Part shown: positions 7,295-60,581 of the stretch, piece after piece
How the letters are laid out: every line of letters starts with the position of its first letter
How positions within the stretch are numbered: position 1 is the stretch's first letter
DNA from: Runella rosea
Lineage (GTDB): Bacteria > Bacteroidota > Bacteroidia > Cytophagales > Spirosomataceae
Assembly: GCF_003325355.1 (NCBI RefSeq)
Contig: NZ_CP030850.1
Span: 2,294,001 to 2,358,000, forward strand
Direction of reading: 5' to 3'
Length of the DNA stretch: 64,000 nt
Position numbers and translations under genes: made by a program
The notes under the pieces: generated by a model
Told to the model about the DNA's origin: nothing
The model's input: the letters and a program-made list of their open reading frames with translations, nothing else
Databases searched by the model: none

Positions 7295-9004
<1,710 letters not shown>

Positions 9005-18875: not shown

Positions 18876-18884
18876 TTCTTGATA

Positions 18885-19643
18885 TTATTTTACGGTGGTC
18901 CGTCCGTCTTTTGTTGGGTTAAGCTCCTGATTTTGTTGCCCTTTTCGTCGCAAATAATCAGCAATGGCATCGCGCATCAGATAACGAAGAATCTGAAAAC
19001 CCTGATTGTTTTTAACAATAGCCGCCATGTCACTGCTAACAGCCATGTAGTCGCTCGTGATGAGCGTATAGGTTTGTTTTAAATCCAGCGGTTTGCCGCC
19101 GATTGTGGCCTCCAGCGGTTTATTGGTCGCTTTGTCGATGACCAATTTCACGCCCGATTGGGGCTCTTTGCGCTGCGCTAAATACTCAATCACTTTCTGC
19201 ATGGTTTCGCCCGAGAGCGTGATGGCCACCAATTCGTTGTCAAAAGGCATGACTTCATACACATTGCCGAGGGTAATATTCCCAGCGGGAAAATCAGTTC
19301 TGATTCCTCCGCTGTTGGTAATAGCCACATCTACGGGTTTACCCAAGCGTTCTTGCCCCATTTCGCGCAAAATATCCGCCATTAAATTCCCTAATTCTGA
19401 CTCTGGTACTCCTTTGGAAAGCCGACGCGGCGACTTTACCAATACCGTATTCATGTTTGTTTCCAAACTGTCGCGGTAAGGCTGTAAATACGCAGCAATC
19501 TGTAGCGAAAGCGCTCCCGAGGGGGCTGAAGCAGTATCACTGACGGCGATGGGGCGCAGTTGGACGGGTTTTGCGATAAAATAACGCGTACAGGCCGTCA
19601 ACGAAGCTGCAAACAGCGCAATCAGCAGGATATTTTTTTTCAT
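18885..19643 (-). CDS. 5'-nucleotidase C-terminal domain lipoprotein
   Basis: A 252-aa lipoprotein (lipobox SLTAC, Cys at residue 18) carrying only the 5_nucleotid_C domain that normally follows the metallophosphatase domain in UshA. Motifs are ESELGNLMADILR, ITNSGGIRTDFPAGNITLGNVYEVMPF and TLITSDYMA. It precedes the catalytic-domain gene by 9 bp on the same strand. It has its own signal and start, so the arrangement is a natural two-gene form, not a broken gene. Confidence 0.9.
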   Translation of the reverse strand: MKKNILLIALFAASLTACTRYFIAKPVQLRPIAVSDTASAPSGALSLQIAAYLQPYRDSLETNMNTVLVKSPRRLSKGVPESELGNLMADILREMGQERLGKPVDVAITNSGGIRTDFPAGNITLGNVYEVMPFDNELVAITLSGETMQKVIEYLAQRKEPQSGVKLVIDKATNKPLEATIGGKPLDLKQTYTLITSDYMAVSSDMAAIVKNNQGFQILRYLMRDAIADYLRRKGQQNQELNPTKDGRTTVK

Positions 19644-44515: not shown

Positions 44516-47500
44516 ATGCGATTTCTACCCTTTCTAGCGTTGTTAGCTGGTTTTTGGGGCAACGGTAGCCACACCTCCGCGCAAGGCACTCGTCTGCTGC
44601 GCCAACCGACCGTCAGCGACCGCGCCATTGTCTTTGTGTATGCCGACGACCTTTGGCTCGTTGACCGCGACGGCGGCAATGCCCAACGCCTCACCACCCA
44701 CGAAGGCACCGAATCTCTCCCTCATTTTTCGCCCGACGGCAGCCTAATTGCTTTTTCGGCTCAGTACGCGGGCAATACCGATGTGTACGTTATTCCTGCC
44801 AGTGGCGGCGAACCCAAACGCCTCACGTGGCATCCAGGAGAAGACGCCGTGCAGGGCTGGACGCCCGACGGGCAAAGTGTCGTTTTTCGTTCGGGGCGCA
44901 GTGGCTATCCAACCGCCATCGCTAAGTTTTTCAAAGTCAACATCAAGGGCGGATTTCAGGAAGAACTGCCCATTCCACAAGCCCACGCGGGAGAGATTTC
45001 AGCCGATGGCCAAATGGCGGCCTACCAAACCATCGGCTTTTGGGACCCCGAATGGCGTAATTATCGCGGCGGACAGGCCCAACCCATCTGGATTGTGGAC
45101 TTAAAAACCCTTACGCTTAAAACTACTCCCCAAACCGACCGCGAGCGCCATACCGACCCCGTTTGGTACAAAGACATGGTCTATTTTCTCTCTGAGCGCG
45201 ATTATGCCAACAATATTTGGTCGTTCAACCCCAAAACCAATGAGCTGAAGCAGGTCACCTTTCACAAAGATTTTGACGTAAAAAGTCTGGATGCTTCCAA
45301 TGACCGCATCCTGTATGAACAGGGAGGCTACCTCCACCTACTCGACCCGCAAACTGGACAAGCCAAACAATTGATAATCAACGTACAGGGAGATTTTACG
45401 TGGGCATTGCCGCGTTGGCAAGATGTGCGCCCGTCGGCCCTGTTGAATGCGTCCCTTTCTCCCACGGGCAAACGGGCTTTGTTTGAATACCGAGGCGATA
45501 TTTTTACCGTTCCCAAAGAAAACGGCGATTGGCGCAACATCAGCCACAGCCCCGGCGCCGCCGACCGCTCGCCCGTGTGGTCGCCCAATGGTCAGAAGAT
45601 TGCTTGGTTTTCGGATGCCAGCGGTGAATATCAGTTGATGATTTCGGATCAAGAAGGACTCGAAAAACCGCGCGCAGTGGCCTTGCCCACTCCCACATTT
45701 TACTTTAAACCCCAGTGGTCGCCCGACAGCAAATACATTTCGTATACCGACACGGATTATAATTTATGGGTTATTGAAATTGACGGCGGCCAACCCAAAA
45801 AGATTGATACCGAGCGTTTCGCGCACCCAAATCGCAGTCTGAACCCCGTTTGGTCACCAGATAGCAAATGGATTGCCTACGCCCGTATTTTGGACAATCA
45901 GCACAAAGCCATCAAAGTCTATAACCTTGAAACGGGCCAAACGCATCAATTGACCGACGGCATGTCAGACGCCATTTCGCCCGTGTGGGATGCCAGCGGA
46001 AAGTATTTGTATTTTTTAGCAAGTACTAATTTTGCGCTAAACACGGGCTGGCTCGACATGAGTTCATACCAAATGCCCGTTACCCGTGGTGTATACATGA
46101 TTGTTTTGGCAAAAGGCGACCCCTCTCCTTTTCTGCCCAAAAGTGACGAAGAAATCGTAGAAAAAATCGAAAAGAAAGAAGAGCCTCCCACCGACGACAA
46201 GTCCAAGAAAACGGATAAAAAAGGCAAAGAAGCGCCCAAAAAGGACGAAAAAACAGAGCCCAAAAAAGGAATTGTGGTAAAAATAGATTTGGACGGCCTT
46301 GACCAACGCATTCTGGCATTGCCCAAAGTTGCGGTAAAAGATTATGACCAGATCATTGAAGGCCCAGAAGGTTCTCTGTTTTTTACCGAAAATATCCCCG
46401 ACCAGCCTGGCTTTATTCTCCATAAATATACCCTCAAAGACCAGAAAAACGAAGATTTTTTGAAGGGCATTCAATACGCCGTTACCGCGCACGACCGCAA
46501 GAATTTGCTGTATCGCAGCGAAGGTTCATGGGGCATTATAGCCACCGCCAATCCCCCTAAACCGGGCGATGGAAAGCTGAACATGGCAGGCATGAAAATT
46601 CAGATTGACCCTAAAGCCGAATATAAGCAAATCTTCCGCGAAGGCTGGCGCTATCAGCGGGACTTCCTGTACGTAAACAACACCCACGGCGCTCCTTGGA
46701 ACGATGTGTATCAATGGTATTCCCCTTGGATTGACCACGTTCGCCACCGCACCGATCTCAATTACGTAGTCGATATTTTGGGCGGAGAAATTGCCGTAGG
46801 GCACTCCTATACCTCAGGTGGCGATTTTCCTACCTTGGACAACAACAATCCTGCGGGACTTTTGGGCGCAGATTTTAGCATTGAAAACGGATTGTATCGC
46901 CTAAAAACCATTTTTACGGGCGAAAACTGGAACCCTGAATTACGCGCTCCGCTCTCCGGCCCGGGCATCGACGTCAAAGAAGGTGATTATCTGTTGGAAA
47001 TCAACGGCGTGCCCCTTACGGCAGAGATGGATATTTATGGTTTATTGGAAGGAACGGCCAATCGTCAAATCAAAATTCGTGTAGGTGCTACGACCTACTT
47101 AAAAACTGCTAAATTGATTACGGTCGTACCCATTGCCAATGAAGCACAGCTCCGCACTCGCGCGTGGGTAGAAGGCAATCGTCGCAAGGTATCCGAACTT
47201 TCCAACGGCCAGTTGGCCTACGTATGGATTCCCAATACGGGCAATGGTGGCTACGAGTATTTTAACCGTTATTATTTTGCCCAACAGGATAAAAAGGGGG
47301 CAGTGATTGACGAGCGTAACAACGGCGGCGGTTCAGCAGCAGACTATATTGTGGATGTTTTGGCCCGAAAATTACAAGGATATTTCAACAGTCGCGCCAA
47401 TGACCATAAGCCATTCACCACGCCAATGGCAGGACTTTGGGGCCCTAAAGTAATGATTATCAATGAGCGCGCTGGCTCTGGGGGTGATTTGATGCCGTTC

Positions 47501-47830
47501 TTGTTCCGCCAAGCCAAAGTCGGTCCGTTGGTAGGCACCCGTACCTGGGGAGGGTTGGTCGGAACATGGGACACCCCGCCCTTTATCGACGGTGGTCGCA
47601 TGGTAGCGCCTCGCGGTGGTTTTTATGATGTGGACGGAAAATGGTCGGTAGAAGGAGAAGGCATTGCGCCCGATGTGGAGGTTCACCAAGACCCCGCCAA
47701 AGTAGCCAAGGGAGAAGACCCGCAACTGGAAAAATCGGTACAGGTAGCGTTGGAATTGTTGAAGACGCAAGGCGTAACGCTCAAACCAGAGCCAGAAGCA
47801 CCTATTCGATATAAAAGACCACAGAAGTAG
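44516..47830 (+). CDS. Tricorn-protease-like S41 peptidase
   Basis: An 1104-aa exported protein with a signal peptide (residues 1-22). Domains in order: WD40/TolB-like propeller repeats (residues ~25-500, for example FSPDGSLIAFSA, WSPNGQKIAWFSD, WSPDSKWIAYARI), a Lys/Glu-rich linker (~535-580), a tricorn C1-like helical part, a PDZ domain around DVKEGDYLLEINGVPL and an S41 serine peptidase with the catalytic Ser in NERAGSGGDLMP. It is expected to degrade peptides in the periplasm. It is the last gene before the accessory island. Confidence 0.93.
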   Translation: MRFLPFLALLAGFWGNGSHTSAQGTRLLRQPTVSDRAIVFVYADDLWLVDRDGGNAQRLTTHEGTESLPHFSPDGSLIAFSAQYAGNTDVYVIPASGGEPKRLTWHPGEDAVQGWTPDGQSVVFRSGRSGYPTAIAKFFKVNIKGGFQEELPIPQAHAGEISADGQMAAYQTIGFWDPEWRNYRGGQAQPIWIVDLKTLTLKTTPQTDRERHTDPVWYKDMVYFLSERDYANNIWSFNPKTNELKQVTFHKDFDVKSLDASNDRILYEQGGYLHLLDPQTGQAKQLIINVQGDFTWALPRWQDVRPSALLNASLSPTGKRALFEYRGDIFTVPKENGDWRNISHSPGAADRSPVWSPNGQKIAWFSDASGEYQLMISDQEGLEKPRAVALPTPTFYFKPQWSPDSKYISYTDTDYNLWVIEIDGGQPKKIDTERFAHPNRSLNPVWSPDSKWIAYARILDNQHKAIKVYNLETGQTHQLTDGMSDAISPVWDASGKYLYFLASTNFALNTGWLDMSSYQMPVTRGVYMIVLAKGDPSPFLPKSDEEIVEKIEKKEEPPTDDKSKKTDKKGKEAPKKDEKTEPKKGIVVKIDLDGLDQRILALPKVAVKDYDQIIEGPEGSLFFTENIPDQPGFILHKYTLKDQKNEDFLKGIQYAVTAHDRKNLLYRSEGSWGIIATANPPKPGDGKLNMAGMKIQIDPKAEYKQIFREGWRYQRDFLYVNNTHGAPWNDVYQWYSPWIDHVRHRTDLNYVVDILGGEIAVGHSYTSGGDFPTLDNNNPAGLLGADFSIENGLYRLKTIFTGENWNPELRAPLSGPGIDVKEGDYLLEINGVPLTAEMDIYGLLEGTANRQIKIRVGATTYLKTAKLITVVPIANEAQLRTRAWVEGNRRKVSELSNGQLAYVWIPNTGNGGYEYFNRYYFAQQDKKGAVIDERNNGGGSAADYIVDVLARKLQGYFNSRANDHKPFTTPMAGLWGPKVMIINERAGSGGDLMPFLFRQAKVGPLVGTRTWGGLVGTWDTPPFIDGGRMVAPRGGFYDVDGKWSVEGEGIAPDVEVHQDPAKVAKGEDPQLEKSVQVALELLKTQGVTLKPEPEAPIRYKRPQK

Positions 47831-47835
47831 ATAAT

Positions 47836-47898
47836 AACGTTGGAGAGGACTGGGTCGCACCGGCGGACTGGTCTGCCGTTTAAATCCTCGCCAACGTT
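47836..47898. repeat. Complex stem-loop element at the left edge of the island
   Basis: Outer arms AACGTTGGAGAGGA and TCCTCGCCAACGTT pair at 13 of 14 positions. An inner hairpin is formed by CGGCGGA and TCTGCCG (one G-T pair). The 63-nt unit sits 5 bp after the tricorn gene and 11 bp before the left direct repeat. It lacks a U-tract on either side, so it is not a standard terminator. It could be a REP-like dispersed repeat or a small structured RNA. A tRNA reading was considered and rejected. Confidence 0.55.
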
Positions 47899-47909
47899 GA
47901 ATTTATACA

Positions 47910-47948
47910 GACATCTTATCAACCAAGTCCCGCACAATTTCCTGGAAA
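47910..47948. repeat. Left 39-bp direct repeat (diverged copy of the ceramidase gene 3' end)
   Basis: Identical at 37 of 39 positions to 58344-58382. Read on the minus strand it encodes FQEIVRDLVDKMSV and a stop, the last residues of the ceramidase-like protein with one I-to-V change. It lies outside any gene here and marks the left end of the island. Confidence 0.85.
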
Positions 47949-48025
47949 AATTTATTTAAAGAGTTTAATATCAGTTATTTATTGGCAAAAATTTATACTA
48001 TCAAACCTTTTTTGTGTGGTCATTT

Positions 48026-49723
48026 TTAGTTTTCTTCGTTATATTCTTCCTCTGTCTGTTGTTCTTCTTCCCCAGTAGCGACTTCGCTTACAATTCTTTT
48101 TTTCAACTCTGAACTTACAATGATTGCACGTGCATTGAAAAACATTTCATAGTCATTTTGTTCGACACCAAAATCCTGAAAATCACTAATGAAGTGTGTT
48201 AGCAGAGTTTCTGCGAGTCTATTGTTATTATTGCCTATTTCTTTCATGTATCTGGCAGGTGCTTTATCTCTAATGATACGCTTATTCAGGAAGTCATCTA
48301 CAATCGTGATATTCAGAATATGATTATATCTCCAGTAATCCATTGTAGGATATTCTCGCCTCATAAAAGCAATCGGAAAGAAATGATGATAATTTTTACT
48401 CGTAGATTTTTTCAGCCAACTGTTATCTATCAAAACATCAAAATGGTTATGGAATGATTTAGGCTTTTGCATAGCATATAAACATAATATGCCTTTTATG
48501 AAGCTTCGACTCGTACCAAACCATCCATTTCTCTTTAGTTCTTCGGGAGAAATATTAATACTCCATTCATAGTACGGTAGTTTGTTATCCAAAATTTTAT
48601 CAATTTTTTGTATATCATTGGCAAGCTTATTTTCAACGCCCGAAGAATACCTGCTGCCCAATGCACAACGCCAAAAGAAGTCTTCCAATCGCCTTTGCAT
48701 TTCGCCTACCGGTACATCAGGATGTTTATAGAAACAATAGCTAAAAGGCACAACAAGAGCATTATACGGCAATAATTCGGATACGGGTATGCCAAAGGTT
48801 CGGAAATAATCTACGCTTGCTTTTATGGCTTTTACAGCACTTTCCCAGATAGATATAAAGGCTTCTTTTTCCAGTTCCAATATCTGTTTGCGAGTGCATC
48901 CCCCCACCAATAATATAGATACAACTTGAAGGATGGTTGATGGTGATATTGTATCGTATTTAGAATGTTTTAACTCCTCAATTAGCTTTTGATAACTGTC
49001 CAGTAAATCAAAACTATTTTCATTGTTAGTTTCATTTTCTATTGCCTGAAATACCTTTGGAGCTTTATAGGTCTTTGCTACCATAATCTCAAAAAGAGAT
49101 AAGGTTTTACCGCCTACGTTCAAGCGTGTGAACACATCCGTTGCCACATCAATTTTGGCATCGTTTAGATAGGTAATATTAAAATTCCATCCTCTGATGT
49201 TGTTCTGAAACTTTAACAGACTTTCATGATATTCGGTCGGGAATGAACCAAGTAAAGCAAAACTCCCATTGATTAAATCGGTAACTCGAATGTAGCTTTT
49301 TTCAGGTAGTCCATTGGTTTCGGTAATGACTATATCGTCATCTTCGCCTGCCATTAAGTTAATATAAATTTCAGAGAAATTATCTACTTTTCCTCTTTCT
49401 CTTTCAATTTTTGCCCCCGTAATGGCCGCAAAAAATGACGTGATGCGCTGTTGGCCGTCCAGAATATAGTACACAGACTCTCCATTGCGCTGCTCGGGGA
49501 AGGATAAATTACCAATACTCCTGACCGATCTCAGTTCTTCCTGCGTCTGCCATAAAATAAATGTTCCAATAGGATACCCTTTGAGCATACTGTCGACCAA
49601 TTTGGCCGATGCTTTCAGTTCCCAAACAAAGTTTCGTTGGAAGTGTGGGATTCTTACCCTGCCTGATTCGATACGACTGATAAAATCTGAGTATTTTTCG
49701 GATACGTGTGTTACTGATGCCAT
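48026..49723 (-). CDS. DUF262 protein with C-terminal HNH-like domain (GmrSD/BrxU-like)
   Basis: A 565-aa protein. The N-terminal DUF262 (ParB/sulfiredoxin-like) domain shows RIPHFQRNFVWELKASAKLV, YPIGTFILWQ and YILDGQQRITSFFAAI, the NTP-dependent nuclease motif set. The C-terminal region contains KNYHHFFPIAF and NHILNITIVDDFLNKR, matching the His-rich core of DUF1524-type HNH nuclease domains. GmrS/GmrD and BrxU of this group cut modified (for example glucosylated hydroxymethylcytosine) phage DNA. The C-terminal tail is Glu-rich. It is the last gene of the island operon, 14 bp after the methyltransferase. Confidence 0.87.
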   Translation of the reverse strand: MASVTHVSEKYSDFISRIESGRVRIPHFQRNFVWELKASAKLVDSMLKGYPIGTFILWQTQEELRSVRSIGNLSFPEQRNGESVYYILDGQQRITSFFAAITGAKIERERGKVDNFSEIYINLMAGEDDDIVITETNGLPEKSYIRVTDLINGSFALLGSFPTEYHESLLKFQNNIRGWNFNITYLNDAKIDVATDVFTRLNVGGKTLSLFEIMVAKTYKAPKVFQAIENETNNENSFDLLDSYQKLIEELKHSKYDTISPSTILQVVSILLVGGCTRKQILELEKEAFISIWESAVKAIKASVDYFRTFGIPVSELLPYNALVVPFSYCFYKHPDVPVGEMQRRLEDFFWRCALGSRYSSGVENKLANDIQKIDKILDNKLPYYEWSINISPEELKRNGWFGTSRSFIKGILCLYAMQKPKSFHNHFDVLIDNSWLKKSTSKNYHHFFPIAFMRREYPTMDYWRYNHILNITIVDDFLNKRIIRDKAPARYMKEIGNNNNRLAETLLTHFISDFQDFGVEQNDYEMFFNARAIIVSSELKKRIVSEVATGEEEQQTEEEYNEEN

Positions 49724-49737
49724 TATTTACTGTTTTT

Positions 49738-52320
49738 CTACTTCCAATGTTCCTGTATGTACTTGGCCGCTTCGCTAAGTCTTAAATCTATCGTGGAAGC
49801 AAGGCGGCGGATGTAAAAGGTCTCTTTGCCGTTTTCGTCGGTGATATAGAATGGCTCGGCTGATTTTTCTTTGATTTCAACCATGCAGAGGGTTTTGCCT
49901 TCAACACTCGGAAAACTGACATTAAGATAATGATGGACGTGGTTGCCGAAGGTCTTACCCAACAGGTTATCGAAATGCTTTTGAAACTCGTCTAACTTAT
50001 CGGGTTTTGAGAACGAATCAAAATCAGGTTGAAGCCCCAATATATTTTTATTGTCTTCTACACCGATGAGCAGCGTACCGCCCTCGGAGTTGAGAAAGGC
50101 AGCGATGGTTTTCAGTACGCTATGTTCTATGAACTTCTCGGTGCGGAGGGTGCGGAGGTCGATGCGAAGCGTACTTTTAAACTCTACGGTGGGGCTTTCG
50201 CCCGCTTGGATGAGTTGTAGGGCGGCAGCATGGTTTTGAGATTCCGCTTTTAGGAGGACATCCAACCGCTCAAACTCCGCCAATACCAATGCCTTTTGCT
50301 CGGCAGCCACGAGCGGGAAGGTACTGAGGATGTACTCCAACTCGGCCGCCGTAAGCCCGTAGCAATGCGCCACCATTGCATCCAGTTCAGCCCTCAGTTG
50401 GTTGCGTTGCTCGGCAGCCGTAGCGCCGCTTTGCGCCGACCACGTATTGGGCATTACCTCCTCCCACAACTCCGCAAACTCCTCCGTAGTGCAGATGAGA
50501 CGGGCGGCTCGCTCTACTATCTCCTCATAAAACCTATCTCCCGCCCGTAAACGCGGTACGGGAAGTTGGTAGATGTAGAACATATTACAGTGTGCTGTTA
50601 CCTTTTGTCGGGTTAAAAAGTCAACAACAAAACTGTTCAAGAACGTAACAATACCTAACAAGTCATTAGGAGACAATTCGTTTTTGGAAATTACAAGTGT
50701 ATTACCTGTAACGGCTTTTTTGGGAAGTATTGATGCAATTAAAGTTCTAATATCTGTGTTTCGAGCAATATCTCTAAATGCTAATCTATACGTTTGATAA
50801 CCAACAATTTGGTCTTTATCTTCTTCCCTGCCTAATAGTACTTTCCTGCCTTCTTGTTCATTTATCCAATATCTACCCTGTGAAAATTGACTATCAAATT
50901 GATGAATCATTTTACCTTCATATACTGGCAAATAGTCTCCTTTGTTTTCGATTCGGAACAAATGGCTATCGTTTGTCATATGAATCTCATTTCCCAACTT
51001 CACATTCCAAATCCTCGCCATTTTATCTCCCAACAACGGAAATTTCAACATTTGCTCGACAATCTGAAACTCCATTTCGTTTTTCATTTCCATGATACTG
51101 AGGCTATCGGGGCTTTGGCGTTTGATGAAATCCACCGAAATCATATTAGCTCCGTACTTAGGAAACAATGCCAATTCCTCCACATTGTGACGCATAAAAG
51201 CCGCAGGAAAGCTGGTGGTAGTGCCGCCTTTCTCAAAACTCAACACTATGAACTTAAAACTGCGGTGTACGTTTTCGAAAATCTCTTTGCGGTTTTCAAA
51301 ACAGAATAAGCCCGTTATTTGGGTCTGCTCAAAGAGCAATTGACGGAGTTGTTTAGTGCCCAAGTCGGTATAAATGCCACTTGGGATGACAATACCGCAA
51401 TAGCCTTGGTCACGCAGGAGATTGTAACTCTGCTCGGTAAAGAGTTTGTAGAGGTTAATATCTGAGCCTGCTTTTTTTCCATTGACGATAGAAATTTGGT
51501 TACGAAACTGTGAAGAAGCTCTGAAATAAGCACTTACGTGAGGAAACGAACTTTGGTAGTCGAACCAAGCTGCTCTTGTTTCAGTATTTTCCAAAAGTTT
51601 GCTTTGCTCTTTTTCAAAGTCTTTGATATTCATTTTGTTTTTCGTGACCACATCCGAGTATTTCAAGAAAAACTCCTTTGAGTTGGGCTTAAACACTTCC
51701 CAAGGCGGATTAGCAATGACGGCATCGAAGCCATTTTTCTTTGTAAATATTTCTGAGAATTCGTAGCCCCAATGAAAAGGCTGGAGGGCTTCGATATCGG
51801 CAAGGGTCAGGGGGCGTTTGGTGGGTTTCCCTTCTTTGTTTTTGGCGGTGTCCCAGGTTACTGCTTCGTAGCGGATGCCGAGGGTGTTAAACTCGTCCAA
51901 AAGCAGTTGATTCAGCACTTTATAGGCTTCGTCCCGTTGGGTTTGGATGCTTTCTTTGAGGGTTTGTAGGGCGTCGCTGTCGAGGTTTTGGGCGTTGCGG
52001 TACGCGCGCAGAGCGGCTTCTTTTTCGTTGATCAGTTGCTGATAGCCTTTGGCTTTGTTTTCTCCAAAGAGGTCAAACTGCACCACTGCGGGGCGAAACA
52101 AATCGGCTTGTTGAATTACTTTACCCGAAGCCCCAATATTACTTTGAGTTTTTTGAGTATCAAAACGGCTGCTGTCCACGCGCATCAGTCCCATGAGCGA
52201 GTTGCCCGCCATGATGTTGAAGTCAATATTGGGCAGCGGTTCGAGGTCATCTACGTGGTGGGCCGAAGCCACCAAGGCCAAAAACAGCCGAAGTTTGGCT
52301 ATTTCGGTAGCTTCCTCCAT
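49738..52320 (-). CDS. C-terminal fragment of frameshifted Eco57I-like DNA methyltransferase with AlbA_2 domain
   Basis: An 860-aa frame that continues the methyltransferase begun at 53803. The start MEEATEIAKLRLFL is the helix that normally follows NLYGVDI. Catalytic motif IV is NPPWEVF (residues 204-207), the adenine-N6 type. A target-recognition-like region (~250-600) follows. The last ~150 residues form an AlbA_2/Schlafen-type domain (VEFKSTLRID and NSEGGTLLIGVEDN), an unusual fusion. An ATG at 52320 could allow separate translation. Without the N-terminal half, it lacks the cofactor-binding motif I. Confidence 0.85.
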   Translation of the reverse strand: MEEATEIAKLRLFLALVASAHHVDDLEPLPNIDFNIMAGNSLMGLMRVDSSRFDTQKTQSNIGASGKVIQQADLFRPAVVQFDLFGENKAKGYQQLINEKEAALRAYRNAQNLDSDALQTLKESIQTQRDEAYKVLNQLLLDEFNTLGIRYEAVTWDTAKNKEGKPTKRPLTLADIEALQPFHWGYEFSEIFTKKNGFDAVIANPPWEVFKPNSKEFFLKYSDVVTKNKMNIKDFEKEQSKLLENTETRAAWFDYQSSFPHVSAYFRASSQFRNQISIVNGKKAGSDINLYKLFTEQSYNLLRDQGYCGIVIPSGIYTDLGTKQLRQLLFEQTQITGLFCFENRKEIFENVHRSFKFIVLSFEKGGTTTSFPAAFMRHNVEELALFPKYGANMISVDFIKRQSPDSLSIMEMKNEMEFQIVEQMLKFPLLGDKMARIWNVKLGNEIHMTNDSHLFRIENKGDYLPVYEGKMIHQFDSQFSQGRYWINEQEGRKVLLGREEDKDQIVGYQTYRLAFRDIARNTDIRTLIASILPKKAVTGNTLVISKNELSPNDLLGIVTFLNSFVVDFLTRQKVTAHCNMFYIYQLPVPRLRAGDRFYEEIVERAARLICTTEEFAELWEEVMPNTWSAQSGATAAEQRNQLRAELDAMVAHCYGLTAAELEYILSTFPLVAAEQKALVLAEFERLDVLLKAESQNHAAALQLIQAGESPTVEFKSTLRIDLRTLRTEKFIEHSVLKTIAAFLNSEGGTLLIGVEDNKNILGLQPDFDSFSKPDKLDEFQKHFDNLLGKTFGNHVHHYLNVSFPSVEGKTLCMVEIKEKSAEPFYITDENGKETFYIRRLASTIDLRLSEAAKYIQEHWK

Positions 52321-53803
52321 GATGTCCCACGCCGTAGAGGTTGTTGGTAATGATTTGCTTTTTGATGTAATACTCTAAACTCGGGTGGTCGGCTTCAATC
52401 TTTTGCAACCAATCGCTGAGGGGTTTATCGTGCAAAAACTTGATACGGCCAATAACCGCGGCATACACATTGATGAGGGTTTTCATGGCCGCCACCAAAA
52501 ACGCACCTGAGCCGCAGGCGGGGTCGAGCAAGCTGAGTTTAGGCAAAATACCCGTTTTTTCATCAATGAGCTTACGAATAATGGGGGCATCCAGTTTGGT
52601 GTAGAGTTCAGCAAGATTTTCGTACACAGGTGCTTGCAGTTTTTTACGCAATTCAGTCGGTAAACCGTCAGCAAGTGCTCCGCCGTTGAGTTGGTCGAGG
52701 ATGAGTTTGTTGACGGTTTGTTCGCAGAGGTATTCCGTGATTTCGGGGCGGGTGTAGTAGGCCCCAAATTCTTTTTGGTTGATGTATTTCTCAAAAATAT
52801 AGCCCAGCACATCGGGATTGATTTCGTTGTCGTTTTGCCCGACGGTATCGTTCAGAGACCAACTGTAGGAGTCAAAGAGCCCAAAGAGGTTTTCAAAAGC
52901 CTTATTAGGAATTTGGATATGCTTGTATTTCTGTTCGATTTTGTGTTTCAGGAACAAGCCCCCGTTGAGGTACTTGATTTTTCCGATGAGTTTGCGGGTT
53001 TCGGCATCACGGTATTCTTCGGGTTTGGCAAAGCCTTCAAAAAAGAGTTTTTGGAGGAAGATGCCATAGAAAGTCTCCTCTCCCCCAATGGAGGCTTTTA
53101 GTTTTTGTTGCAGGTAATTGTGATTGCCATTGTCAATAAAGCCTTTTTTCTGTAGGAAGTAGATGAACATCAGGCGGTTGAGAATAACCGATGCGTACCA
53201 GTGACGGTCTTCTTCGTGGTCAATGCCTTCAATGAGATTGACGAACTCCACAAATTTGAGTTCATACTCTTTAAAGAACTTTTTAGTAACCCGCTCTACA
53301 TCAAGGGCTTGCTTGAGTTTTTCGGCCACTCGTGCAATGGAGATATTGCCATCTTCATCAAACTCTGAGAGGTCAGTGACCAGTCCCGTAAGTTTAGGGA
53401 TAAATCCATCACCAGATTGCCCGCGTAAAAAGAAATGGTCACGGTGGAGTTTTTTAGCCGCTTTGTTGCCTTTTTCCTGTAGTTTGACCCAATGCCATAC
53501 CGATTGACTGCGGTCTTTATCAATAAAAATGAGCAGGTTTTCGGCTTTGAGGGCATGGATTTTATTGGCGATTTCTACTCGGGTTTTGCTGTTGGGGATT
53601 GCCCCGTCGGCCATCGTAATTTCATAGACCGTTGCCCCTGCCAGTTCGGCAATGGGCTTTCGGGTAAAATTAACAGCTTTAAGTACCTCTGCCTGAGTAG
53701 CTTTATTACTTGGATTCGACCAGTTGAGTTCTTCGATGAACAGCTCTCCAAAGCGAAATTCTTGGAGCAAGGTGCGGGCATTTTCAATGTTGAGTTTTGC
53801 CAT
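52247..53803 (-). CDS. N-terminal fragment of frameshifted Eco57I-like DNA methyltransferase
   Basis: A 518-aa frame with a helical N-terminal region (TRKPIAELAGATVYEITM, ERVTKKFFKEYELKFVEFV), a helical spacer and the SAM-binding motif I LLDPACGSGAFLV (Asp427-Gly433). At residue 492 (NNLYGV) the frame shifts because of one extra base in a GGG run (52326-52328). The protein then ends in 26 unrelated residues (GHHGGSYRN onward). The downstream ORF resumes the family sequence. Restored, the enzyme would be ~1354 aa. The pair is a pseudogene, a split enzyme or a sequencing error. Confidence 0.85.
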   Translation of the reverse strand: MAKLNIENARTLLQEFRFGELFIEELNWSNPSNKATQAEVLKAVNFTRKPIAELAGATVYEITMADGAIPNSKTRVEIANKIHALKAENLLIFIDKDRSQSVWHWVKLQEKGNKAAKKLHRDHFFLRGQSGDGFIPKLTGLVTDLSEFDEDGNISIARVAEKLKQALDVERVTKKFFKEYELKFVEFVNLIEGIDHEEDRHWYASVILNRLMFIYFLQKKGFIDNGNHNYLQQKLKASIGGEETFYGIFLQKLFFEGFAKPEEYRDAETRKLIGKIKYLNGGLFLKHKIEQKYKHIQIPNKAFENLFGLFDSYSWSLNDTVGQNDNEINPDVLGYIFEKYINQKEFGAYYTRPEITEYLCEQTVNKLILDQLNGGALADGLPTELRKKLQAPVYENLAELYTKLDAPIIRKLIDEKTGILPKLSLLDPACGSGAFLVAAMKTLINVYAAVIGRIKFLHDKPLSDWLQKIEADHPSLEYYIKKQIITNNLYGVGHHGGSYRNSQTSAVFGLGGFGPPRR

Positions 53804-53825
53804 TAGGTTTAGGTCTTTTTATGGT

Positions 53826-53852
53826 AATTGTCGTGCCAGTGGCACGACAATT
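53826..53852. repeat. Perfect palindrome between DUF1016 and methyltransferase genes
   Basis: AATTGTCGTGCC and its exact complement flank a 3-nt loop (12-bp stem). It occupies most of the 64-bp gap between the two island genes. There is no good T-tract on the minus strand after it, so it may attenuate or serve as an operator for an MTase-type control circuit. Confidence 0.6.
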
Positions 53853-53867
53853 TGAGATTACAGCACT

Positions 53868-54872
53868 TTACCCGTTTTCAAGAATTTGCTTGATTTTGTT
53901 TTCAAGTTGCTTCTGGTCGGGTAAATAGAGTTGGTATTTTGAAACAAAAATTTTATTTGAAAGCCCTCCTGTTGCGTACTTAACCAAAAACTCGTGTTTA
54001 TCTGCCGCAATTATAATTCCGATAGGTTCATGGTCGCTTTCCGTATTTTCTTCCTCTTTAAAATAATTGAGGTAAAGGTTCATCTGGCCGATGTCTTGGT
54101 GCTTTACTTTATGGGTTTTTAAGTCAATTAAAACAAAGCATTTCAAGATTCGATGATAAAACACCAAATCAACATAAAAGTGTTGGTTGTCTACTGTAAT
54201 CTTATATTGTCGGGCTACAAACGAAAAACCCTTTCCAAGTTCGAGCAAAAATTTTTGGAGGTTATCAATGAGTTTACTTTCTAAGGCTCTTTCTTTTACT
54301 ATCTTTTCCTGTGGAAGTCCAAGAAACTCAAACACATAAGGGTCTTTAATAATATCTTTAGGCTCCTTTATGCTTTGCCCTTTTGCCGACAATGCCAATA
54401 CACTTTCTTTATCCTTACTGAGCGCCAGTCTTTCAAATAGGGCAGCATCTATCTGCCGTTTCATTTCTCTAAAGCTCCAATTTTCTTTTTCGGCTTGTTT
54501 TTCATAAAATGTTCTGGCCAAGTCATCTGAAATGGTCAAAAGTTCAGCGTAATGACTCCAACTCAATTTTCCAGACAGTGTCTGGAAAATTGGGTATTTG
54601 AGGTAAAATTGCCTGCATAGGTAGATATTACTTTTTCCAAACCCCTTTCCATACGCCAGTTTTAGGTCTTTTGAAAGGTTTGATAGCAACGAGCTACCAT
54701 AGTCAGCTTTTTCTTTGCCGTTTTGTTCAAATTCAACGATATGTTTGCCAATTTCCCAATTAGCAATCACTAATTCTTGATTGACGGCTTTTATGGCATT
54801 TTCACGAGTTCGGTGTAGCGTCAGTCCGATGTCGTCAATCAGTTTTCGATATGTTTGCTTTATGTTAGTCAT
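53868..54872 (-). CDS. DUF1016 (YhcG-type) PDDEXK nuclease
   Basis: A 334-aa protein. The start at 54872 is the ATG that overlaps the helicase stop by four bases (ATGA), a coupling arrangement; the longer frame upstream is not used. The N-terminal helical DUF1016 domain has ELVIANWEIGKHIVEFEQ, SNLSKDLKLAYGKGF and LSWSHYAELL. The C-terminal nuclease core has HFYVDLVFYHRILKC and VLIDLKTHK, the D-x-(E/D)xK metal site. The family is associated with restriction and defence loci. Specificity is unknown. Confidence 0.9.
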   Translation of the reverse strand: MTNIKQTYRKLIDDIGLTLHRTRENAIKAVNQELVIANWEIGKHIVEFEQNGKEKADYGSSLLSNLSKDLKLAYGKGFGKSNIYLCRQFYLKYPIFQTLSGKLSWSHYAELLTISDDLARTFYEKQAEKENWSFREMKRQIDAALFERLALSKDKESVLALSAKGQSIKEPKDIIKDPYVFEFLGLPQEKIVKERALESKLIDNLQKFLLELGKGFSFVARQYKITVDNQHFYVDLVFYHRILKCFVLIDLKTHKVKHQDIGQMNLYLNYFKEEENTESDHEPIGIIIAADKHEFLVKYATGGLSNKIFVSKYQLYLPDQKQLENKIKQILENG

Positions 54873-57800
54873 AGTCGTAGTCCCATCGAACAAATAATTT
54901 GTGGGTCTTTTGATTGGGTATCGTCTTCGGAAATGAGACACAGGTTGTTTTCTTCCCTTAGTGAGGTGATCATTGCAACCATATCATCGTCTTTGACGTG
55001 GTTTTTAAAGAAACGGTTAATACGTTCTTTGGCAATTTCACGCAGAGGATAACGGTAAATTTCATCAATGGCACGCTCTAAGGCTTCGGTAACGAAGATA
55101 GTGCCCCGGTTCTGTTCGTAGTATCGTTTGAGGAAATGATAAATTCGGTAACGAACGCCCGTATGCCTGCCCAACTGCCCGCCAATATTCTTTTCCATTT
55201 CCTTGATCACCTCCAACCCCTTCGCGACCAACTCGTGATGGGCGGGTATTTTGGCTAAGGGGGGGGCGTTAGGCTCACAAGCCACGGTTTTCAAAATGGT
55301 AAGTTGCGATTGCGTAATAGTGGCGCCTTTATCGTTCAGCCAGGTCAGTATATCATTATCTTCGGGCGTACGGGCATACACAATCACGCCATTTTGTTGG
55401 CTTACAATTCCTTCATTCTGTGGATTATTCTTAGTAGCATACACTACTTCGGGCATATCAGGGATTGTTTTGAGGAGTGTTGGGTTTTGGTCGGTGGCAT
55501 CTTTCCAAATCTGATACGCATACGAGGCTAAATCAACTTCGCTATCGTCTTCTTCGTCCAAAATACCTGATTCCTCATTATAAAGAGTTTCCAATTCCGA
55601 CCTCATGCGCTGATTGGTAAAAAACTGTTCATCTGAACCAATCACTTCACCACTTTCTTCCAATCGGCTTTGCAGGCGAGTACGGAGGCGAATGATACGT
55701 TCAATACCCTCTTCGGGCAAAAACGAATAACAATAAATTTTATCTGATTTCTGTCCTATTCTATCCACTCGTCCAGCCCTTTGAATCAATCGAATGATTG
55801 CCCAAGGAAGGTCGTAATTCAGGATAATATGAGCATCTTGTAGGTTTTGTCCTTCCGATAGTACATCCGTTGTTATCAGAACACGTAGCTCGTTTTTTAC
55901 ATTTTTGATTCGGTTACTTTCAGGACTAAATCGGTGAGCATATTCGGTAGGGTTCTCGGTATCACCTGTTACGCAACCGATGTTGACTATACCTTTCTTT
56001 TTCAAGCTTTTATGTAAATAAATAGCCGTATCTGCAAATTGCGTAAAAATCAGAATTTTTTCAGTTTTATGTTTTTTAGTACATAACTCGTATAAGCAGT
56101 TTAACTGTCGGTCATTTTGAGGTGTCCAGTCTTTCCCTTTTTCCAAAATGCCTAATAGTTGGTTAGAATCGTTGTTCAGCGCATTTTGTAAGTGTTTTGA
56201 AAAAAGATGACTGCCAATCCAATCGAAACGATTGTAATATTTACTCTCAAAAAGAGCGTAAACGCTTGCTGCTTTGTTCATGTATTGTTCATGAGTAAGC
56301 ATCAGGTCTATTTCTTCGTTAGTGGTATCACCAAACAAGGTAATTTCTTCATTATCAATGTCATTTTCCTCCAAATACTCATCAAGCATCGCTACATCCT
56401 GTTTACCAATCGGAAAAGGTTTTTGGTTTTCGATGGCATACAGAAAGATATAATTTCGCAGAATATGACGGCTTACCGAGAGCAAGAACGCATAGCCACT
56501 GCTTTCGAGACGTTTGAAAAGATTGGTTTTGGCAAAACCCTTTAATCTCGACCCTGCCCTACCTAAGTTGGATTGTACTATAAGTTCTTCGGGAGTAGGG
56601 AAAGGAATCGGATTCTGCTCAATGTATTGTTGAGTACCCAACCCATAGCGAGGCAAAAACAGCTTGTCAATCACACTCACTATCTCATCAGAATACAATT
56701 GAGCATACTGGTCGTTAGGGTCATTGACATCAAAATCGTATTCTACTTTCTTGGCATATCGGTCAGGAAAATAAGAGCTGCGTCCATCGGCAAAGGTCAA
56801 ATATTGTCTATTATTGGTCGGGTCATTTTGAGTGTAGCTTTTTTTGATAAAACTGCGGGTCCGTCTTATCAAATAAAGCCGCATCAATTCTCGCCAATCG
56901 TCAATAAAATCGCTTTTTTCAAAAGCTGACAGGCTTCCAATAGGAGTTTGATACTTCCCCATAAAGTAACTTCTTCCTCCTATACTATTGATGAAATTTT
57001 CGGGAGTTATGCCTAAATCTCTGTCTTCGGGCAAAAATAGTCGTAATTGATTAGATAAATCAATCAAACTTTTATTGTAGGGGGTAGCCGAAAGCAGAAT
57101 CACTTTTGATTCGTTTCTTTGAATGTATTCTTGAATGACTTTGTAGCGTTTTCCCTCTCTATTTCGCAAGTTATGGCTTTCATCAATCATTACGATTCTG
57201 TACCGCCTCATCTTAGGAAGTTCATTCTGAGCTTGTGTGATGGACACTATCTTTGCCCTAAGTTGGTATTTATGGGTATAGTCTTCCCACATTTCAACCA
57301 AGTTTTTAGGGCAAATAATGAGTGTTTCCAATAGATGCTCCTCTTCCATCATTTTGGCTAAGGCGGTCCCGGTAATGGTTTTCCCCAGTCCAACCACATC
57401 ACCAATCATTACGCCTCCCCGTTTGTTTAAATGCCTTGCTGCAATTTGAACCGCTTTTTGCTGAAACTCCAACAGTTCTTTCTGGAAGATTAAAGGCAAA
57501 GTGTTCTCTGCTAACCCTGCGCGTGCTTCTCTCGAAAGGTGATAGGCGATTTTTAAATAAATCTGATAAGGGGTATAGTTTTCGGATGCCCAGGAAGTAT
57601 CAATGATTTCAGCAAGTTCTTTAGAAATATCTACACAAAACTTGTCATTCCATCGTTCCTCAAACCAAGTTACCAATTTTTGATTAGCGTCTTTTTCCTG
57701 TACATCTACATTTAACTCTCCCTGATTTGCTAACCCTGCTAAGGTAAGATTACTACTTCCCAGAAAGCTATTTACAGGATTTACTTTATCATATCTATAC

Positions 57801-58231
57801 AACAAATACAGTTTAGCATGAAGTGGGTACCGCAGGAAAAGTTTGACAACTAACTTTTTTGATTTTAGTTGATTTGACAAAACTCTAAGTCCATTTTCGT
57901 CTTCTTCCGTTGGAATACCAACCATCAGTTGTTCTTTAAACTCCTTCGCTAAACGCTTTTTTAACAAAATAGCGGATTGAGTATCAATGGCATTTTGCTC
58001 ACTCTTGTTAAAATAATCACGAACTACAAATTCGGGAGACTTGTGCATCCCTATGAGTAAACGGCATTGATTCTCTTCCTCTCCTTGCCAATCTTCTACA
58101 TATTTTGCAATTCTTTTCCAGCCTCGTAAATTGAAGTAACCTACACAAAAATCAGCTTTATGTGAAACTTCTAAAACTTCTGAAAGACCAGTTAGTAAAT
58201 GCTGTTTTATGTTATCGTATATCGTGGGCAT
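54869..58231 (-). CDS. PLD-domain SNF2-like helicase
   Basis: An 1120-aa protein. Residues ~1-200 form a PLD-like domain with HAKLYLLY (H138-K140) and GSSNLTLAGL (158-167). A superfamily 2 SNF2 ATPase follows: Walker A GDVVGLGKT (277-285), DESH box at 350-353, motif III/TPYN in LLSATPYNKSLI, and the C-terminal lobe with IFTQFADTAIYL and RAGRVDRIGQ. A Glu-rich stretch lies near residue 940. It is the first gene of the island operon. The combination is known from modification-linked defence loci. Its 3' end is coupled to the DUF1016 gene. Confidence 0.93.
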   Translation of the reverse strand: MPTIYDNIKQHLLTGLSEVLEVSHKADFCVGYFNLRGWKRIAKYVEDWQGEEENQCRLLIGMHKSPEFVVRDYFNKSEQNAIDTQSAILLKKRLAKEFKEQLMVGIPTEEDENGLRVLSNQLKSKKLVVKLFLRYPLHAKLYLLYRYDKVNPVNSFLGSSNLTLAGLANQGELNVDVQEKDANQKLVTWFEERWNDKFCVDISKELAEIIDTSWASENYTPYQIYLKIAYHLSREARAGLAENTLPLIFQKELLEFQQKAVQIAARHLNKRGGVMIGDVVGLGKTITGTALAKMMEEEHLLETLIICPKNLVEMWEDYTHKYQLRAKIVSITQAQNELPKMRRYRIVMIDESHNLRNREGKRYKVIQEYIQRNESKVILLSATPYNKSLIDLSNQLRLFLPEDRDLGITPENFINSIGGRSYFMGKYQTPIGSLSAFEKSDFIDDWRELMRLYLIRRTRSFIKKSYTQNDPTNNRQYLTFADGRSSYFPDRYAKKVEYDFDVNDPNDQYAQLYSDEIVSVIDKLFLPRYGLGTQQYIEQNPIPFPTPEELIVQSNLGRAGSRLKGFAKTNLFKRLESSGYAFLLSVSRHILRNYIFLYAIENQKPFPIGKQDVAMLDEYLEENDIDNEEITLFGDTTNEEIDLMLTHEQYMNKAASVYALFESKYYNRFDWIGSHLFSKHLQNALNNDSNQLLGILEKGKDWTPQNDRQLNCLYELCTKKHKTEKILIFTQFADTAIYLHKSLKKKGIVNIGCVTGDTENPTEYAHRFSPESNRIKNVKNELRVLITTDVLSEGQNLQDAHIILNYDLPWAIIRLIQRAGRVDRIGQKSDKIYCYSFLPEEGIERIIRLRTRLQSRLEESGEVIGSDEQFFTNQRMRSELETLYNEESGILDEEDDSEVDLASYAYQIWKDATDQNPTLLKTIPDMPEVVYATKNNPQNEGIVSQQNGVIVYARTPEDNDILTWLNDKGATITQSQLTILKTVACEPNAPPLAKIPAHHELVAKGLEVIKEMEKNIGGQLGRHTGVRYRIYHFLKRYYEQNRGTIFVTEALERAIDEIYRYPLREIAKERINRFFKNHVKDDDMVAMITSLREENNLCLISEDDTQSKDPQIICSMGLRL

Positions 58232-58298
58232 TTGTCATTAATTTCGTCAATATTATACAACGGTAGGATAAATCTTTGAAAAAACATTTTATTAAAAA

Positions 58299-58335
58299 TC
58301 AGCCTTGGAAAGTTTTAAAAACTTTCCAAGGCTGA
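58299..58335 (-). terminator. Terminator of the ceramidase-like gene (18-bp perfect palindrome)
   Basis: A perfect 18-bp stem with a 1-nt centre, from TCAGCCTTGGAAAG inward. On the minus strand it is followed by TTTTTAAT, so it is a strong rho-independent terminator 4 bp past the gene stop. It also sits inside the right end of the island. Confidence 0.88.
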
Positions 58336-58339
58336 TAAA

Positions 58340-59698
58340 TCACGACATCTTATCAATCAAGTCCCGCACAATTTCCTGAAAATAAGCACCGTTGTAAGGC
58401 CCAAACCAGTTCATGGTTAGGGTTTCGTAGGTATCTCTTCCGTAGTATTTATCGGGTGTAATGTACCCAATATACCCTCCATTGAAGCTCGTAACCATCA
58501 ACTGCAATCCTTTCTTTTCAGCATAGGCGCTCATTTCGGCCACCAATTCTCCCGAAAAATCACAGGGAAAACCAACCATCAAAACATTACCGATGCGCAT
58601 CGCCTTGACATAATTGGGATAATCGCCAAAGGCCCAATGAAACACCCAAGGTCTCATGCTCAAACCCGTAGTAACTCTCGGAACCGGCTGGCGAAGAGGC
58701 AATGGGAGCGTTACCATTTGAAAAACTGGATTTGGGAAAGGTTGGATTTGAGTAAGTTGCTTCTGAACATCGCTTTCTAAACTGTCGGCTTCGGTCCCCA
58801 CTTTGACAAAATCAGAATCGGATTCTATCCCAATTTTAGGCCCCATACTCCCCACCGCCCCCGACATAAACAGGGCAAAATTGGCCTCTCCTTTTTCCAA
58901 CGAATCTACCAACACCCCTGGGTAATCGCGCGATAGCACAATGTTGTCGGAACTCATAATCGTTGAATGGGCCGCGTAGGTGCACAGCAAGGCTTTTTGG
59001 CCATCGTTTCTTACAAACTGCATGGTACGCACAAACGGGTCAATAGTCCCTTCATCAAACGCCCGATTTCTAACACGAGCGGTATCAGCCAATTGATTGT
59101 ACGCCACTGTTGCAGGTTGGAGGTCTTTTTGCGCTGATTGCACTGCTTTTACAATCGCATCGGCAATCCACGTCACGTTTGCTTCGTTAAATTCTCCCCC
59201 AAACAACTTTCCGACAATTCCTTCACTCCAACCACCCATGCTGTTGTGCGAGTGCGTTGCGCCAAAATAAACCTGCTCAAACGGAATTCCTGTTGCTTTG
59301 AGTTTCTCTTTGAGTTGTTCGGTAACGGCGGGCGGAATAATCAATAAATCAGCGGCAACGATTGCGGCTTTGGTATCGCCATTTTCGATGACCACGGCCC
59401 GAACATAAATAGAATCATGCACGGAGGTATACAAAGCCCCCCGCCTTACGCCATATCCGGCGGTCGGCGTGGGTGATTTGGGCGTAAAATTCACTTTTGC
59501 CCAACCGACTTTCAGTTGATTAACGCCCAACGACTGCTTTCTAACTGGCAGCTCCTTCATTTGGGTCTTCCATTGTTGATAATAGGGCATTTCTTGGTAG
59601 GGCGTATCGTCGATGGTAGTCAACATACACACCAATACAACCGCAATCAGCGCGACCAGACCGCCGAGAATTTTGAGAAGGATTTTGAGAAAACGCAT
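58340..59698 (-). CDS. Neutral/alkaline ceramidase-like protein
   Basis: A 452-aa protein starting at the ATG at 59698. An N-terminal membrane anchor (residues ~8-30) is followed by the neutral-ceramidase N-terminal domain with VGWAKVNFTPKSPTPTAGYG, VVIENGDTKAAIVAADLLIIP and FGATHSHNSMGGW (metal-binding His pair). A second catalytic-type block is AAHSTIMSSDN followed by FMSGAVGSMGP. It would act on N-acyl sphingolipids, consistent with sphingolipid-making Bacteroidota. It is shorter than typical ceramidases (~650 aa), lacking the C-terminal Ig-like domain. Its last 12 residues lie in the right direct repeat of the island. Confidence 0.87.
   Translation of the reverse strand: MRFLKILLKILGGLVALIAVVLVCMLTTIDDTPYQEMPYYQQWKTQMKELPVRKQSLGVNQLKVGWAKVNFTPKSPTPTAGYGVRRGALYTSVHDSIYVRAVVIENGDTKAAIVAADLLIIPPAVTEQLKEKLKATGIPFEQVYFGATHSHNSMGGWSEGIVGKLFGGEFNEANVTWIADAIVKAVQSAQKDLQPATVAYNQLADTARVRNRAFDEGTIDPFVRTMQFVRNDGQKALLCTYAAHSTIMSSDNIVLSRDYPGVLVDSLEKGEANFALFMSGAVGSMGPKIGIESDSDFVKVGTEADSLESDVQKQLTQIQPFPNPVFQMVTLPLPLRQPVPRVTTGLSMRPWVFHWAFGDYPNYVKAMRIGNVLMVGFPCDFSGELVAEMSAYAEKKGLQLMVTSFNGGYIGYITPDKYYGRDTYETLTMNWFGPYNGAYFQEIVRDLIDKMS
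58344..58382. repeat. Right 39-bp direct repeat (native ceramidase gene 3' end)
   Basis: It encodes the C-terminal residues FQEIVRDLIDKMS of the ceramidase-like gene on the minus strand. It differs from the left copy (47910-47948) at two positions. It marks the right end of the island. Confidence 0.85.
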
Positions 59699-59762
59699 TT
59701 TAAGAAGGAGCAAAAGTTTGATTTATGAGGCACAAACTAAGATAGAAATAACGACTGTACAT

Positions 59763-60399: not shown

Positions 60400-60489
60400 T
60401 TTAATATATTTTTGTCATGCTGGAAGCATCTAAATGCAACTGAAGCAGTCGATAAATTTAGGTCAATGTTTGGCTCTTTCTAACTCGCT

Positions 60490-60573
60490 GGGCAAACGCA
60501 AGGCTTGTTTGGGCAAACGCAAGGCTTGCTTGGGCAAACGCAAGGCTTGCTTGGGCAAACGCAAGGCTTGCCC
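60490..60573. repeat. 21-bp tandem repeat, four copies, between lutB and lutC
   Basis: Units begin at 60490, 60511, 60532 and 60553 (GGGCAAACGCAAGGCTTG plus TTT, CTT, CTT or CCC). They are nearly identical. The end unit runs into GCCCCTAC, linking it to the REP-like palindromes near 33.5 and 39.6 kb. It is inside the lut operon. Confidence 0.88.
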
Positions 60574-60581
60574 CTACTTCC

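Follow-up and report, generated by a model that had tools for sequence, protein, structure and literature searches.

A restriction gene island between two copies of a ceramidase gene end in Runella rosea

Islands inserted by an integrase, like cis-mobilizable elements, lie between direct repeats of a gene or tRNA 3′ end. The target can be a protein gene, as with SGI1, which integrates at the 3′ end of trmE according to PMC8409611. The Runella rosea island described here shares the flanking gene-end repeat with these elements and differs from them in that no integrase was found, that its site is not common to the other cargoes of the same slot, and that the repeat length varies at other genes of the chromosome. 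A closer parallel among restriction-modification genes is insertion with long target duplication (Nobusato et al. 2000, as cited in PMC1643837 and PMC3031569). As these two sources present it, one genome has restriction genes that a relative lacks, and the target is directly repeated on either side of them. That process is known in Helicobacter; in Runella, other unrelated cargo also shows duplication, and the copies are found at the 3′ ends of genes, each next to a different spacer. Integrase-free hotspots of horizontal transfer, attributed to recombination in the core genes that border them (Oliveira et al. 2017, PMC5635113), are similar in that varied cargo occupies one slot between two conserved genes with no mobile element recognised, and the Runella locus differs from the hotspots as outlined there in leaving a displaced gene end, which we would not expect from double homologous recombination alone. 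Displacement of T6SS modules has been ascribed in PMC5361080 to homology-facilitated illegitimate recombination; there too an incoming module is anchored on one side and the old part is kept beyond it, whereas the Runella locus keeps merely 39 bp of the old gene, with no evident function.

The repeat pair and the island cargo

The window analysed is a stretch of 64,000 nt of the R. rosea genome (GCF_003325355.1, NZ_CP030850.1, positions 2,294,001–2,358,000, forward strand). Positions 47910–47948 and 58344–58382 form a direct repeat, identical at 37/39 positions and spaced by 10434 bp. The right copy is made of the final 13 codons of a ceramidase-like gene (58340–59713, minus strand; Pfam Ceramidase_alk, 1e-19), and the left copy, which codes for FQEIVRDLV, is orphaned from that gene, both as the initial annotation had described. 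Together with the old stop codon, the displaced end (47903–47948, minus strand) finishes as DKMSV-stop, where relative G011 finishes as DKMSA-stop. With up to 3 mismatches allowed, the 39-mer occurs at these two sites only in the 7.16 Mb of the genome; the repeat is therefore not widespread, a chance origin was rejected, and no further site for another island ending in the same 39 bp, a check suggested by the annotation, was found in this genome. Within 3 mismatches, the 39-mer occurs once each, at the ceramidase end, in 7 of the 12 other Runella genomes, and the relatives without the island (G011, G002 and G008) keep one copy with the tricorn and ceramidase genes adjacent, as had been predicted. 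None of the viral contigs searched contains the exact 39-bp pattern, and a viral source was rejected as far as the repeat can tell. A tRNA target was likewise rejected, the window being devoid of tRNA genes. Other direct-repeat families in the window (at least 30 bp, seed 14) amount to a 21-bp tandem array at 60489–60592 and one 71% pair. At 39 bp, the target repeat on both flanks exceeds the length of transposon-type duplications. These observations support the view that the island is acquired DNA at the ceramidase 3′ end; the gene has a complete end, the old one lying beyond the island.

All five ORFs between the repeats have restriction- or defence-type matches, which bears out the proposed restriction-type content, and all lie on the minus strand. 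From left to right they encode a DUF262/GmrSD_N protein (48026–49723; Pfam GmrSD_N, 5e-29), the C-terminal part of an Eco57I-like DNA methyltransferase with a terminal SLFN_AlbA_2 domain (49738–52320; Pfam Eco57I, 8e-19; SLFN_AlbA_2, 1e-17), the N-terminal part of the same methyltransferase (52247–53803), a YhcG-type PD-(D/E)XK nuclease (DUF1016; 53868–54941; Pfam YhcG_C, 6e-60) and a PLD(HKD)-SNF2 helicase (54869–58231; Pfam PLDc_2, SNF2-rel_dom and Helicase_C; PADLOC C3a139 HKD+Snf2, 7e-49), the putative nuclease of the restriction pair. The two methyltransferase parts are split by a frameshift near 52.3 kb, the homologue being a single ORF in L089 (1198 aa) and L092 (1160 aa). Judged by these domains, the cargo is a predicted helicase-nuclease and methyltransferase pair, the latter frameshifted, with additional YhcG and GmrSD-N genes. 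GC content ranges from 0.36 to 0.48 in the ten 1-kb bins wholly inside the island and from 0.46 to 0.52 in those wholly outside. The Type-2 BREX-related (DUF499) systems, as reported in PMC12839542, also combine an HKD + SNF2 helicase with an N6 methyltransferase; the five island ORFs differ in giving no Pfam match to the DUF499 ATPase or to DUF3780 at E 0.001, and we do not assign the cargo to that family. Relatives of the helicase on plasmids (589 records, 40 of them with at least 80% query coverage) are all below 60% identity, and those in phages (16 records) are all partial, with 0 reaching 80% query coverage. A DNA search of 200 family genomes, including all 12 other Runella, returned no match to the island helicase or methyltransferase in other Runella, nor did Runella genomes of another sample.

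Spacers and the tricorn-ceramidase slot

To the left of the island lies a tricorn-like protease gene (44516–47830, plus strand; Pfam PDZ_Tricorn, Peptidase_S41 and Tricorn_C1), convergent with the ceramidase gene; in G011 a 97% identical copy adjoins the ceramidase gene. Between it and the displaced end is a type-1 spacer with a hairpin (47837–47898) that matches those of G011 and G002, where the site is empty, and the left copy itself ends as in these two genomes, with TCT-NNN-TAA followed by the hairpin. The right copy ends in TCG-stop, an ending shared with 6 of 11 Runella relatives (G012, G004, G008, G001, G010 and G003), and is followed by a terminator-like hairpin (58299–58336) of the kind found in type-2 spacers. 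The gene-side copy and the displaced copy thus adjoin different kinds of spacer. With exact arms, the right-hand hairpin (CCTTGGAAAG) occurs 12 times across 13 genomes, and 6 of these occurrences are in the tricorn-ceramidase slot. G012, G004 and G008 have the hairpin on the side of the slot next to tricorn, and its ceramidase-side position in the window is seen again only for a second copy in G010. Hairpins 85–91% alike are also present elsewhere in Runella genomes, and together with the tricorn-side position in three relatives they led us to reject the hairpin as a locus-specific marker; it is suggestive of slot-type DNA and serves as supporting evidence only. Mapping of an import tract from differences at the ceramidase 3′ end was dropped, the excess being too weak: the flanking genes show a local excess in the last 60 bp of ceramidase only, where 6 positions differ from G011, within the range of other 60-bp bins (up to 9).

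Including R. rosea, nine Runella genomes have the tricorn-ceramidase pair, with the slot filled in 6/9 and empty in 3/9. Different accessory genes stand between the same core genes from one genome to another: five further Runella genomes hold other cargo, each without a second ceramidase end, and none was found in a search of 18 relative loci. G010 presents the mirror image, with the tricorn end duplicated instead of the ceramidase end. A stretch of the G008 spacer recurs at the end of the cargo in G012 and G004, and this empty G008 site may have lost its cargo.

Recombinases and other repeat pairs

No recombinase is encoded by the five island ORFs, an absence already pointed out in the initial annotation, and none was found among the scanned slot-cargo ORFs of other genomes (five of G003, two of G004 and two of G010). 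Queried by tblastn at E 1e-6, the 16 PF00589 integrases of the genome gave 0 matches in the window, where the annotation had proposed to look for an integrase next to the repeat, and no match in the 18 relative loci. A remnant integrase inside the island was rejected on the same tblastn and on the Pfam matches of the ORFs. Integrases were sought genome-wide through PF00589 only, and serine recombinases and transposases through Pfam on the scanned ORFs only.

Scanning 1.264 Mb of the chromosome for repeat pairs gave 27 aligned pairs, with 7 rows lacking a gene or tRNA tag left aside, one of them with neighbours listed. Three pairs in this stretch lie at tRNA genes with an integrase inside each, and they provide a within-genome control for three others at protein-gene 3′ ends (39, 77 and 141 bp), each with an orphan copy. 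A PF00589 match was found inside 0/3 of the protein-gene-end pairs, and G011 has a single-copy site for all three. In the 141-bp pair, at a glycosyltransferase gene, the 153-bp gene-side spacer aligns with the spacer of G003 at the same gene and the sequence beyond the orphan copy follows that of G011, so that two kinds of spacer are present here too. The PPK2 insert is present in G012, with copies 77/77 identical, and, truncated where a contig stops, in G002; the single-copy PPK2 site of G011 could be a loss of the insert. Compared with their relatives, two of the three protein-gene-end pairs look locally doubled.

Origin of the duplicated gene end

We infer that host recombination, and not an island-borne integrase, brought the island in (probability roughly 0.6), because ends are doubled at two other genes, no integrase was found, the two copies adjoin different spacers and G010 has a mirror-image case at the tricorn end. 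The incoming fragment would have come from a closely related Runella strain in which restriction genes adjoined a ceramidase 3′ end. It would have paired with the resident ceramidase gene, where a single crossover would anchor it, and its far end would have been joined with little homology, presumably by a non-homologous join, at a point 39 bp into the end of the resident gene. The ceramidase gene would thereby receive the incoming end, that is, the right copy with DKMS-TGA and hairpin, and the old end, the left copy with DKMSV-TAA and the type-1 spacer, would be stranded across the insert. The outcome would be an insertion with long target duplication, consistent with the insert-free relatives with one target copy, the 39-bp flanking repeat and the restriction-modification cargo without recombinase. 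Because the two copies have 2 mutual differences, versus 3–5 to each of 7 relatives, the donor must have been very close to the species, unless the copies were homogenised at a later time. Against this reading stand the different hairpin position in relatives, the weak sign of an import tract in ceramidase, the possible loss at the PPK2 site of G011 and the two pairs that look locally doubled.

Site-specific integration, favoured by the initial annotation, is possible but doubtful. A tyrosine recombinase that recognises the end of the ceramidase gene would have inserted the island there, alone or as part of a larger parent element. The integrase would since have been lost or would act in trans, and what is left between attL and attR would be a cis-mobilizable remnant. 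The precisely regenerated gene end, the 37/39 repeat, the single-copy sites of relatives, the integrase islands at tRNA genes in the same genome and the precedent of SGI1 in trmE (PMC8409611) all agree with it, and the right-hand spacer too would be accounted for by an element that brought its own gene end with stop and terminator. However, the searches for a recombinase were negative, the 39-bp site has no second use in the genome or in five other slot cargoes, G010 offers a mirror case at the tricorn end, and a separate recognition would be needed for each of the repeats, which measure 39, 77 and 141 bp and lie at unrelated genes. In another reading, fill-in of a staggered break at the end of the ceramidase gene, on both sides of captured cargo, would have doubled 39 bp in situ with no donor homology. 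The similarity of the copies to each other speaks for it; the glycosyltransferase copies are likewise closer to each other (8/141 differences) than to two relatives spanning the site (11–19). We nevertheless consider such duplication improbable, since the right copy runs straight into TCG-TGA as in six relatives and not into the local TCT-GTA-TAA (by our own estimate, a G and an immediate stop would arise by chance about 1 time in 85), the slot-type hairpin comes next after this stop, and the glycosyltransferase gene-side spacer is homologous to that of G003. Least plausible of all, and very unlikely, is that the repeat is a relic of an older insertion or duplication and that relatives lost the island. 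Recombination between two copies would leave exactly one, the PPK2 insert is kept in G012 and single-copy in G011, and the G008 spacer hints at departed cargo, but neither helicase nor methyltransferase matches were found in the other Runella genomes searched and slot contents are unlike between genomes.

Beyond host recombination as such, it is rather unlikely, though conceivable, that Runella has a recurring, recombinase-free route adding cargo at 3′ gene ends with the host gene left intact. Restriction systems, toxin-antitoxin pairs and surface proteins would all use this route, and an unknown factor favouring gene ends with terminator hairpins might drive it. Gene-end direct repeats are often taken for att sites. 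In the chromosome stretch examined, this holds at tRNA genes with an integrase and finds no support at protein-gene ends. Long target duplication is already known, and its recurrence inside one chromosome is the most interesting part of our findings. Displaced gene ends offer a simple sequence signature for cargo gained via host recombination and, the cargo here being a defence island, they bear on the movement of defence genes in the absence of mobile elements.

The duplicated ceramidase end and its cargo

The 39-bp direct repeat of the initial annotation is present as described, with 37 of 39 positions equal between 47910-47948 and 58344-58382. Rather than being widespread, the sequence occurs at only two places in the 7.16-Mb genome when up to three mismatches are allowed. 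On the right, the copy forms the 3′ coding part of the ceramidase-like gene (58340-59713, minus strand), finishing with TCG-TGA. The left copy is indeed orphaned and specifies the same peptide except for V in place of I, running on to an old stop codon (DKMSV-TAA, versus DKMSA-TAA in the Runella genome G011). The spacer on its left, with a hairpin at 47837-47898, is of the type that separates the ceramidase-like gene from the convergent tricorn-like gene (44516-47830, plus strand) in G011 and in another Runella genome, G002. With its old stop and old-type spacer, the left copy is thus the former end of the gene, its former spacer still attached. Among 11 Runella relatives, the ceramidase gene ends in TCG and an immediate stop in six (G012, G004, G008, G001, G010 and G003), in TCT-NNN-TAA in two (G011 and G002) and in other ways in three (G006, G007 and G009).

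A few bases past the TGA of the right copy lies a CCTTGGAAAG hairpin, which is the only place with exact arms in this genome. Exact arms occur at 12 places in 13 Runella genomes, six of them in the slot between tricorn and ceramidase; the hairpin adjoins the tricorn end in G012, G004 and G008, and among relatives a position beside ceramidase is seen solely for the second copy in G010. Looser relatives exist elsewhere in the genus, and we treat this hairpin as a supporting marker only.

The cargo between the repeats is of restriction type, as first proposed, and comprises a PLD(HKD)-SNF2 helicase, an Eco57I-like methyltransferase, a YhcG nuclease and a GmrSD_N protein. A frameshift divides the methyltransferase into two ORFs overlapping at 52247-52320; intact homologues measure 1198 and 1160 aa at two fetched loci (L089 and L092). 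The frameshift may leave the system inactive, or it may reflect an error in sequencing. At its C-terminus (ORF 49738-52320) the methyltransferase carries a fused Schlafen AlbA_2 domain, an extension absent from the three homologues among the four methyltransferases scanned. Among 390 genomes searched in the order, the helicase matched at E <1e-100 in seven beyond our own, all from other families, and methyltransferase matches adjoin it in all six of these that were fetched. Searching 200 genomes of the family at the DNA level added matches to parts of the helicase and the methyltransferase genes in G437, G504 and G015, with no match to either in the 12 other Runella genomes. The island YhcG and GmrSD_N had no tblastn hit (E 1e-5) in six fetched stretches, three of them short. 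A Type-2 BREX-related system, as described in PMC12839542, was rejected because DUF499 and DUF3780 are absent from the island.

A slot with variable contents in Runella

The tricorn-ceramidase pair is found in nine of 13 Runella genomes, with the slot empty in three and filled in six. In G011, G002 and G008 the two genes are direct neighbours with a single repeat copy, which is the island-free arrangement expected of relatives; cargo may have been lost from the G008 site, whose spacer has a stretch in common with the cargo end of G012 and G004. Besides the restriction-type island, fillings include a PIN-domain pair with YhcG (G004), a two-gene module resembling that PIN pair by sequence likeness (G012), a lone YhcG detected by tblastn (G001), a two-gene module whose weak RelE match falls under the Pfam cut-off (G010), and an 11-kb stretch (G003) whose five scanned ORFs encode AraC-type regulators, response regulators and histidine kinases.

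Tricorn is absent from the locus in G006, G009 and G007, and G005 has no close ceramidase. An ABC gene abuts ceramidase in G006 and G009 (L040 and L043), a layout suggesting that tricorn, too, could be a variable insert. The ABC-tricorn gap next to the slot varies as well, being approximately 2.2-2.4 kb longer in G002 and G003 (L035, about 5280-7480; L041, about 17170-19580). At 60489-60592 in the window, a tandem array of a 21-bp unit lies between genes that we take to be LutC-like and LutB-like.

No second ceramidase end was detected in 18 relative loci, 11 of them from Runella and some truncated where a contig stops. G010 provides the mirror image of the window case: beyond its cargo lies a second tricorn 3′ end with its hairpin, and the two copies differ in kind, one being G001-like and the other like G004 and G008.

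Duplicated gene ends elsewhere in the chromosome

Self-comparison of 1.264 Mb of the chromosome (about a fifth) yielded 27 aligned direct pairs (at least 28 bp, at least 85% identity, 1-60 kb apart): three at tRNA genes, three at 3′ ends of protein genes, 14 with both copies within ORFs, which are paralogues, and seven untagged. Each tRNA pair (Pro, 43 bp; Glu, 87 bp; Met, 77 bp with the whole tRNA on both sides) encloses a PF00589 integrase. The genome has 16 such matches, five within the scanned stretch, and the two outside the tRNA pairs (near 1665551 and 2151215) are in no pair. No PF00589 match lies between the copies of any of the three protein-gene pairs, each of which leaves an orphan copy: ceramidase (39 bp), PPK2 (77 bp; L111, chromosome 2063078-2068577), enclosing a 1653-aa Ig-domain protein, and a glycosyltransferase (141 bp including the terminator; L165, chromosome 2787180-2789078), enclosing an ORF of about 350 aa with no Pfam match and no tblastn hit in six fetched relatives, one only 2.5 kb long.

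G011 has a single copy and no insert at both PPK2 and the glycosyltransferase. The PPK2 insert is shared with G012 and, over the part that its contig covers, with G002. In G012 the two 77-bp copies are identical, and on the orphan side the spacer and part of the end of the cargo gene are repeated as well; the terminator hairpin loop (L139) has opposite orientations on the gene and orphan sides, as if it had inverted. At the glycosyltransferase, G003 has DNA resembling both the 153-bp spacer on the gene side, where it runs on unbroken from the gene, and 177 bp at the insert's opposite end; beyond the orphan copy the sequence is instead that of G011. Here too, then, the spacers on the two sides are of different kinds.

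Proposed mechanisms: anchored recombination or site-specific integration

The initial annotation read the duplicated end as site-specific integration. Its observation of a recombinase-free island stands; the integration itself is not supported, given that no integrase was found, that repeat length varies (39, 77 and 141 bp) between unrelated genes, and that G010 shows the mirror case. The same differing lengths and lack of a detected integrase, together with the mirror case at the other neighbour and the unlike spacers on the two sides, fit recombination that would take one flanking gene as its anchor and be completed on the opposite side by a non-homologous join; the duplicated anatomy is observed directly, and from it we infer both crossover and join.

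What speaks most strongly against a distant donor is how local the doubled sequence appears. The ceramidase copies differ at two positions from each other and at 3-5 from seven relatives; the glycosyltransferase copies differ at 8 of 141 from each other, at 11-19 from G011 and G003, and at 5 and 8 from G002 over the 77 bp that it spans. The PPK2 copies of this genome differ at 7 of 77, the orphan being nearer to G002 (3) and G011 (5) than to its partner. By these differences the doubling looks like local sequence in two of the three cases, which speaks for a donor closely related to this species or for later homogenisation.

The proposed anchored recombination has parallels in the literature. 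The window pattern matches the insertion with long target duplication described for restriction-modification genes of Helicobacter pylori (cited in PMC1643837 and PMC3031569), and also fits the displacement model of T6SS modules (PMC5361080). It is likewise consistent with a report on hotspots, of which only 45% encode an integrase and whose flanking core genes recombine more (PMC5635113).
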